DNA from: an uncultured Pelagibacteraceae bacterium | Lineage (GTDB): Bacteria; Pseudomonadota; Alphaproteobacteria; Pelagibacterales; Pelagibacteraceae | DNA length: 64,000 bases | Assembly (NCBI GenBank): GCA_902582155.1 | Contig: CACHRI010000004.1 | Span: forward strand, 32,274 to 96,273 | Reading direction: 5' to 3' | Part shown: positions 27,913 to 46,487 of the stretch, in pieces | Numbering within the stretch: the first letter of the stretch is position 1 | Layout: every line of letters starts with the position of its first letter | Made by a program: the position numbers and the translations under genes | Notes under the pieces: model-generated | Told to the model about the DNA's origin: nothing | Seen by the model: only the letters and a program-made list of their open reading frames with translations | The model's database searches: none

Positions 27913-28158
27913 TTATTTATTTTTAACTTTTGAAGCCCAAAACTTGTCTAACAAAAAGTACCAAACAGTATTTGCCAGTGGTTCGACTATAGCGTCCGTT
28001 AACGCAATAGAGAAAGAAACGTCTGCAATTAACATAAGTACTGTTATTGCAATCACAAAGTGACCAATTGTATAAACTAAAGTACGTAAAAGAGAGCCTT
28101 TATTATTTTCGTATATTCTCCTAGCTGCTCCATGTATGCCATGAGTAAGTTCAGTCAT
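27913..28158 (-). CDS. DUF2061-like small membrane protein, apparently co-transcribed with katG
   Basis: 81 aa, two TM; SLLRTLVYTIGHFVIAI...EPLANTVWYFLLDKFW; 1 nt from the katG stop. Confidence 0.7.
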   Translation of the reverse strand: MTELTHGIHGAARRIYENNKGSLLRTLVYTIGHFVIAITVLMLIADVSFSIALTDAIVEPLANTVWYFLLDKFWASKVKNK

Positions 28159-28159
28159 A

Positions 28160-30340
<2,181 letters not shown>

Positions 30341-30353
30341 TTAAGTTAATATG

Positions 30354-30376
30354 TAGTTTATAATAATTCTAAACTA
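30354..30376. promoter_or_regulatory. Irr/ICE-like palindrome in katG promoter: TAGTTTATAATAATTCTAAACTA
   Basis: 23-nt inverted repeat with one mismatched pair, 20 nt upstream of the katG ATG; resembles the alphaproteobacterial ICE TTTAGAAnnnTTCTAAA as I recall it. Confidence 0.6.
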
Positions 30377-30395
30377 GAAAGTCAATAAAAGATAA

Positions 30396-30815
30396 CTATT
30401 TTTGAATTCTGATTACAACTTCGAGATTTTTTATTTTTTTACCTTTTGGAGGGACAGGAACTTTGCTTAGTTTTATTTGGCTATAATGAATATCAGTAAG
30501 TTCTTTACTACCTTCATCATAAAAGTGGTGATGCGACTTAATGTTCGTATCATAATAACTTTTATTTTTACTAGTTAGAATTTCTTTTAGGTATCCAGCG
30601 CTAGTGAATGCCTCAACTGTATTATAGATTGTTGCTAAAGAAACTTTCATAGTTCTGTTATTATTTATTTTTTTATTTAATGTCTCAACAGTAAAATGAA
30701 AGGTTTTTTTTCTATCAAATAAAAACTGACAAATCTTTAACCGCTGTTTTGTGGGTCTAAGGTTTGACGATCTTAGTTTTTGAACGTACATTTTTGAATT
30801 ATTACTGATAATCAT
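30396..30815 (-). CDS. irr: Iron response regulator Irr (Fur superfamily)
   Basis: LRSSNLRPTKQRLKICQFLF, VSLATIYNTVEAFTSAGYLKEI, YYDTNIKSHHHFYDE, KVPVPPKGKKIKNLEVVIRI; next to fabA as in other alphaproteobacteria. Confidence 0.88.
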   Translation of the reverse strand: MIISNNSKMYVQKLRSSNLRPTKQRLKICQFLFDRKKTFHFTVETLNKKINNNRTMKVSLATIYNTVEAFTSAGYLKEILTSKNKSYYDTNIKSHHHFYDEGSKELTDIHYSQIKLSKVPVPPKGKKIKNLEVVIRIQK

Positions 30816-30828
30816 TGATTTTGCTTTC

Positions 30829-30845
30829 TTTATAATTCTAAACTA
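30829..30845. promoter_or_regulatory. Second Irr-like half-site TTTATAATTCTAAACTA between irr and fabA
   Basis: Shares ATAATTCTAAACTA (14 nt identical) with the katG-promoter palindrome. Confidence 0.45.
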
Positions 30846-46086: not shown

Positions 46087-46468
46087 CTAAATTATATCCA
46101 AGTTTTTTTGCTATTCTAATTTGCAGTTCCTCTATATCTTTATCTACAAATTCAATTATTTCTCCCGTGTTAATATCAATAAGATGATCATGGTGTTGGT
46201 CGGTTGAAGGCTCGTATCTTGACTTACCCTCTTTAAAGTCGTGTCTTTCAATAATTCCGGACTCCTCAAATAATTTCAATGTCCTGTACACTGTCGCTAT
46301 ACTTATCTTTTTATCAACCAAGCTTACCCTTTTATGTAATTCATCTACATCTGGATGATCTTTAGACCCAAATGTTAATTTAGACTCAGACATTACTTTA
46401 GCAATAACTCTTCTTTGCTCAGTCAGCCTAACACCTTTTTGCTTACATTTTTCCTCTAAAACACTCAT
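46043..46468 (-). CDS. fur: Fur/Mur family metal regulator
   Basis: GVRLTEQRRVIAKVM, ISIATVYRTLKLFEESGII, QHHDHLIDINTGEIIEF. Confidence 0.88.
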   Translation of the reverse strand: MSVLEEKCKQKGVRLTEQRRVIAKVMSESKLTFGSKDHPDVDELHKRVSLVDKKISIATVYRTLKLFEESGIIERHDFKEGKSRYEPSTDQHHDHLIDINTGEIIEFVDKDIEELQIRIAKKLGYNLVDHKLELYGSKNKK

Positions 46469-46487
46469 TTCATCTTTCTCTTTTATA

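Follow-up and report, generated by a model that had tools for sequence, protein, structure and literature searches.

How is the catalase-peroxidase gene katG controlled in a SAR11 bacterium, a member of one of the most abundant kinds of cell on Earth, with a small set of regulators and a habitat in which peroxide is present and iron is short? The window, a stretch of 64,000 nucleotides from a Pelagibacteraceae genome, raises this question at one locus. The katG gene (28160..30334, minus strand), predicted to encode a catalase-peroxidase of 724 amino acids (NF011635, 1019.5 bits at a cut-off of 981), lies directly downstream of irr (30396..30815, minus strand), encoding a putative Fur-family iron response regulator of 139 amino acids, and a palindrome is located between the two genes. 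On the far side of katG, 1 nt after its end and on the same strand, a gene for an 81-amino-acid DUF2061 membrane protein (27913-28158) is possibly co-transcribed with it. An earlier note on this DNA had proposed that the palindrome places katG under iron- or heme-dependent control by Irr rather than under control by OxyR.

An ICE-type site that accompanies irr

The gap between the two minus-strand genes amounts to 61 nt and contains the entire site. In its extended form, delineated by sequence and conservation, the palindrome TAGTTTATAATAATTCTAAACTA (30354..30376, without strand assignment) consists of 11 pairs about a central A, of which 10 match, as had been described together with the position of irr immediately upstream; the distance to the katG start at 30334, given previously as 20 nt, is 19 nt. 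The ICE-type operator core (30357..30373, minus strand) reads TTTATAATAATTCTAAA and deviates by one mismatch from TTTAGAANNNTTCTAAA, again in agreement with the initial description. On the coding strand the core is TTTAGAATTATTATAAA, with the form TTTAGAA-TTA-TTATAAA, against a consensus of TTTAGAAYNRTTATAAA in irr-bearing relatives, and contains the inner 15 nt TTAGAATTATTATAA. Scoring was performed with TTTAGAA-N3-TTCTAAA, the ICE consensus of the earlier note; the core matches this pattern with one mismatch, and its arm pattern is shared by 96 relatives.

Similar palindromes might be expected at random in AT-rich DNA, and for weak matches this is the case: at up to three mismatches, 40 sites were observed in the window against 39.8 expected from shuffled sequences, so such matches are uninformative and were discarded. 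The katG operator is the sole 1-mismatch site in the window. Pattern searches of the whole 977-kb genome recovered five sites with at most one mismatch; among the near-consensus sites examined, only the katG operator is intergenic while all others lie inside reading frames, and only the katG site matches TTTAGAAYNRTTMTAAA exactly. Among 20,000 upstream sequences of 200 nt generated by a first-order Markov model, the best match had at most one mismatch in 22 and two mismatches in 291. The decisive evidence for the site is conservation.

In a sample of 197 Pelagibacteraceae (SAR11) genomes, katG was found in 131 and irr equally in 131, and 126 katG upstream regions were read, 99 from genomes with irr and 27 from genomes without detected irr, whereby absence was judged on incomplete assemblies. 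All 99 genomes with irr have, no more than 200 nt upstream of katG, an ICE-like site of the pattern TTTAGAA-N3-TTATAAA (96 with one mismatch to ICE, three with two), but only three of the 27 without irr do (G006, G170 and G175; Fisher p 7e-23, relatedness ignored). The nearest katG relatives among named genomes belong to uncultured Pelagibacteraceae single-cell genomes and to Ca. Pelagibacter ubique SCGC AAA795-E07. On the KatG tree, irr and the site each change state six times, and the few independent contrasts, four supported pairs of which three agree, none opposes and one is without difference, are too few for a significant sign test. The site is real, strongly conserved and tracks irr, and the palindrome is kept at katG across irr-bearing relatives, conservation being the check that the earlier note had proposed. 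The three exceptions are of two kinds. In G170 the contig begins just before katG, where irr would be; in G006 and G175 fabA directly adjoins katG and the operator persists, which looks like a deletion of irr that spared the operator. In the group of G001, G049 and G077, fabA is located beside katG and the site is gone.

The promoter of irr itself carries an intact TTTAGAAYNRTTATAAA in many relatives, but a degenerate version in the subclade of the window. The 14-nt match at 30829..30842 (minus strand), TTTAGAA-TTATAAA with the 3-nt spacer missing, is probably a remnant of such a site and was rejected as a second operator. Perfect copies of TTTAGAANNNTTCTAAA, considered as further targets, occur in 10 of the 197 genomes, and none was used; the one locus read (L261, G119) contains many short repeats besides the exact ICE and is on a contig that seems, by its sequence, not to belong to the genome. 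Of 29 alphaproteobacterial katG loci from outside the order, 7 carry an ICE-like site (at most two mismatches) close to katG, several of them in DNA of 63-67% GC, and in two (L370, L372) an irr-like gene with an HHH motif adjoins katG. Among other mixed katG loci outside the Pelagibacteraceae, a site at katG was seen in a Rhizobiaceae MAG only (L258).

Promoter overlap and an exchangeable scavenger gene

The position of the site is suggestive of its function. A putative -35 hexamer TTGACT (30380..30385, minus strand) and a putative -10 hexamer TATAAA (30357..30362, minus strand), both read from the sequence, form the promoter-like arrangement TTGACT-N17-TATAAA, and the operator spans the spacer and the -10 element; in 56 of 96 relatives TTGA is located 16-17 nt before TATAAA. 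The base that breaks the palindrome (30361) is the A at the second position of the putative -10 hexamer, and no base of sigma-70 -10 elements is more strongly conserved than the A at this position. The imperfection of the palindrome can thus be attributed to a promoter -10 that doubles as half-site, and the site therefore looks like a repressor operator. In Rhodobacter sphaeroides, an Irr box overlapping the start of mbfA goes with repression (PMC3413700), and by analogy the position over the putative -10 fits repression of katG.

Across the 96 sites, core positions 2-6 and 11-17 do not vary, whereas the flanks do; these sites were chosen as having at most one mismatch from TTTAGAANNNTTATAAA, which favours uniformity, yet the choice covers 96 of the 99 regions. 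The TTTAGAA half, which lies outside the -10, shows no less conservation than its partner. Palindromic covariation of the flank bases was considered as support, but is partial only and was set aside. In three genomes (G014, G154, G190) the best-scoring copy is instead located before the -35; their loci L118 (G014), L122 (G190) and L135 (G154) possess a tandem pair of palindromes ahead of katG; one of the two, located before the -35, has the form TTGAGAAYNATTCTCAA, and the pair would constitute a possible double operator.

Where irr is present but katG is not (32 genomes), the gene directly following irr is rubrerythrin in 31; as identified by Pfam, rubrerythrin occurs in 31 of the 197 genomes, always alongside irr and never alongside katG. 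An ICE-like site, often with two mismatches, precedes rubrerythrin in 23 of 24 loci read. A sister family shows this order too: in 21 of 26 loci read, rubrerythrin comes after irr, and the ICE separating them is exact or has 1 mismatch. Two loci of that family (L302 1927, G236; L304 1925, G242) carry the exact ICE TTTAGAATWATTCTAAA after irr; there, in place of rubrerythrin, the nearest long downstream gene, on the opposite strand, encodes a photolyase-related protein (PF04244 in L302).

The KatG proteins found after irr are themselves of two types, KatG-A and KatG-B, about 54-57% identical. In a first KatG tree, whose outgroups were close to type A only, the two were not separated (AU p 0.46); in a tree with type-B-like outgroups, a single clade of both types was rejected (AU p 4.7e-45). 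As KatG-A and KatG-B do not form one clade, and with rubrerythrin added, three enzyme origins are therefore represented in one place that would be operated by Irr. This place downstream of irr, occupied by KatG of either of two origins or by rubrerythrin, has on comparative grounds the character of a slot for interchangeable peroxide scavengers. Genes may have been swapped behind a kept operator, or operators may have re-evolved. What computation shows is the site with its conservation and its link to the presence of irr, the overlap with promoter-like hexamers and the exchange of enzymes.

The signal and competing explanations

Taken together, we consider it probable that the palindrome is the operator of katG, bound by an Irr dimer in a repressing manner and relieved most likely via peroxide, and that the window displays one state of an Irr-operated scavenger slot. 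A dimer of Irr produced from the adjacent upstream gene would bind the operator, cover the spacer and the -10 and block RNA polymerase, so that katG is off. Inactivation of Irr would relieve repression, most likely through a reaction of peroxide with iron, or with iron derived from heme, at a PerR-like His/Asp site, with heme possibly assisting. Binding, repression and signal are inferred here from the sequences. Of the original proposal of Irr/ICE control, the ICE-type operator, Irr as likely cognate regulator and katG as target hold up (99/99 against 3/27), and the recurrence of the site at the irr promoter in many relatives and before the rubrerythrin that replaces katG adds to them. Against this stands that irr of the window lineage is itself without an intact operator. 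Furthermore, purified R. sphaeroides Irr did not bind the promoter of the katE catalase, which is under OxyR, so that a direct link between Irr and catalase is not established in that organism (PMC3413700). A literature search of partial coverage found no report of direct Irr action on katG.

The protein encoded by irr scores 145.9 bits with NF045678 (IrrA; curated cut-off 150) and 134.2 bits with NF045677 (Irr; cut-off 170), both values lying under the cut-off; among the orthologues found at this locus in a sister family, some score above it. The Irr-model scores are far above those of the PerR and Fur models, PerR reaching 77.9 bits, and the regulator thus does not score best as PerR. In an alignment with B. 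subtilis PerR (2fe3), all five PerR ligands (H37, D85, H91, H93, D104) have His/Asp equivalents in the window Irr; these do not distinguish PerR from Irr, since the same ligands are conserved in Bradyrhizobium japonicum Irr (PMC4700492). The HxH/HHH motif of the metal or heme site is present (SHHHF). The N-terminal CP heme-regulatory motif of the B. japonicum type, which does not occur in all Irr proteins, is absent, the sole Cys of the window Irr being found in ICQF.

The strongest competitor is the classical iron/heme model, in which Irr represses katG at low iron or heme, so that this heme enzyme would be produced only under sufficient supply of both, binding of heme releases Irr from DNA and peroxide has no direct part. 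It shares the likely regulator, and rhizobial Irr generally represses at low iron (PMC3413700, PMC7762939). KatG as a heme enzyme fits the model, as does the HxH motif of the window Irr, which is needed for heme-responsive DNA binding in Rhizobium leguminosarum Irr (PMC7762939). On the other hand, the CP motif is missing, rubrerythrin, which can take the place of katG, does not belong to the heme enzymes, and the set of targets looks peroxide-centred rather than iron-centred. In Ca. Pelagibacter ubique under iron limitation, rbr mRNA rose 1.57-fold (P 0.025), a small change, and the irr transcript followed stationary phase, not iron (PMC2864753); that rbr adjoins irr in this strain is deduced from relatives. 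The rise of rbr at low iron counts against simple low-iron repression. The classical model appears possible but rather unlikely.

Several observations point towards peroxide. His63 of B. japonicum Irr becomes oxidised (PMC4700492), and exposure to H2O2 leads to degradation of this Irr (PMC4902296, citing Yang 2006). The inner 15 nt of the operator, TTAGAATTATTATAA, are identical at 13 of 14 positions to the B. subtilis PerR box TTATAATNATTATAA (as given in PMC545781), with one specified base differing. Peroxide is no less likely than iron as the signal, and peroxide relief with a contribution of heme or iron is modestly favoured over purely iron- or heme-dependent relief. While Irr as the agent of the proposed iron/heme-dependent control is retained, iron or heme as its signal is not established, with PerR ligands kept, the CP motif absent and rbr up at low iron.

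Fur or another Fur-family protein might bind the palindrome instead of Irr, with katG as a direct Fur target. Fur-family boxes are similar to each other, Fur has been found by ChIP on the katG promoter of Magnetospirillum gryphiswaldense (PMC3251581), and a second Fur-family gene (46130-46471) is located about 16 kb from irr in the window. However, the site has the ICE pattern and accompanies irr, and counterparts of the second gene also occur in irr-less genomes (e.g. G001, G009, G012, G022) whose katG is without the site, which renders this explanation improbable. Equally improbable is a positive operator: Irr activates some targets depending on the position of the ICE (PMC7762939), but the site covers the putative -10, where a bound protein is expected to block polymerase, and the precedent of mbfA goes with repression (PMC3413700). 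Least credible is a chance palindrome or plain promoter conservation without operator function; while the genome is AT-rich, weak ICE matches are at chance level and half of the site doubles as -10, the TTTAGAA half outside the -10 is equally conserved and the site is missing from most katG promoters of irr-less relatives.

Independence from OxyR, the remaining element of the earlier note, is probable: no OxyR-like protein was detected at E<=1e-20 in the 88%-complete assembly of the window's genome, with the query genome G165 found as control, and none was found in the incomplete assemblies of five relatives. In the one known case, G165, a relative without detected irr, an OxyR-like LysR gene (L094 231-1115; 222.8 bits to NF008361, cut-off 329) is divergent from katG, which is without ICE, as if an exchange of regulator had taken place.

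Relation to known regulatory systems

A direct operator of Irr at katG and rbr, if true, would mean that peroxide defence is switched without OxyR, and would offer a testable explanation of why rubrerythrin mRNA goes up when P. ubique is limited for iron. An Irr with a single target in SAR11 would equally represent a minimal case for testing what Irr senses. More tentatively, and with slightly less than even confidence, SAR11 Irr may have been narrowed from global iron regulation to a dedicated, PerR-like response to peroxide at one adjacent slot, where unrelated scavengers (KatG of two origins, rubrerythrin) replace one another behind a common operator.

The closest parallel is the ICE/Irr box of Rhizobiales and Rhodobacterales (mbfA, bfr, ccpA), which has the same palindrome with one change and the same regulator family; at the repressed R. 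sphaeroides mbfA the site lies at the core promoter, as at the window katG (PMC3413700). In contrast to these systems, the gene presumably regulated in SAR11 is katG or rubrerythrin, adjacent to irr; only one strong intergenic site was found in the window's genome, one arm is nearly always TTATAAA and the window Irr is without the CP heme motif. PerR systems, as in B. subtilis and in deltaproteobacterial perR-rbr operons, share the arrangement of a Fur-family repressor gene beside a peroxide scavenger, and in Geobacter perR-rbr-roo the palindrome overlaps the -10 (PMC545781), as it does the putative -10 of the window katG. The likeness extends to the operator (13/14 to TTATAATNATTATAA) and to the five conserved ligand residues, whereas the regulator scores as Irr (145.9 against 77.9 bits). 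Fur at katG in M. gryphiswaldense likewise places a Fur-family protein on an alphaproteobacterial katG promoter, the regulator being Fur, not Irr (PMC3251581). Finally, Ca. Pelagibacter ubique, of the same organism group, possesses both irr and rbr (SAR11_0399), with rbr instead of katG; the study in question reports expression only and describes no operator (PMC2864753), and relatives display the order irr-ICE-rbr.
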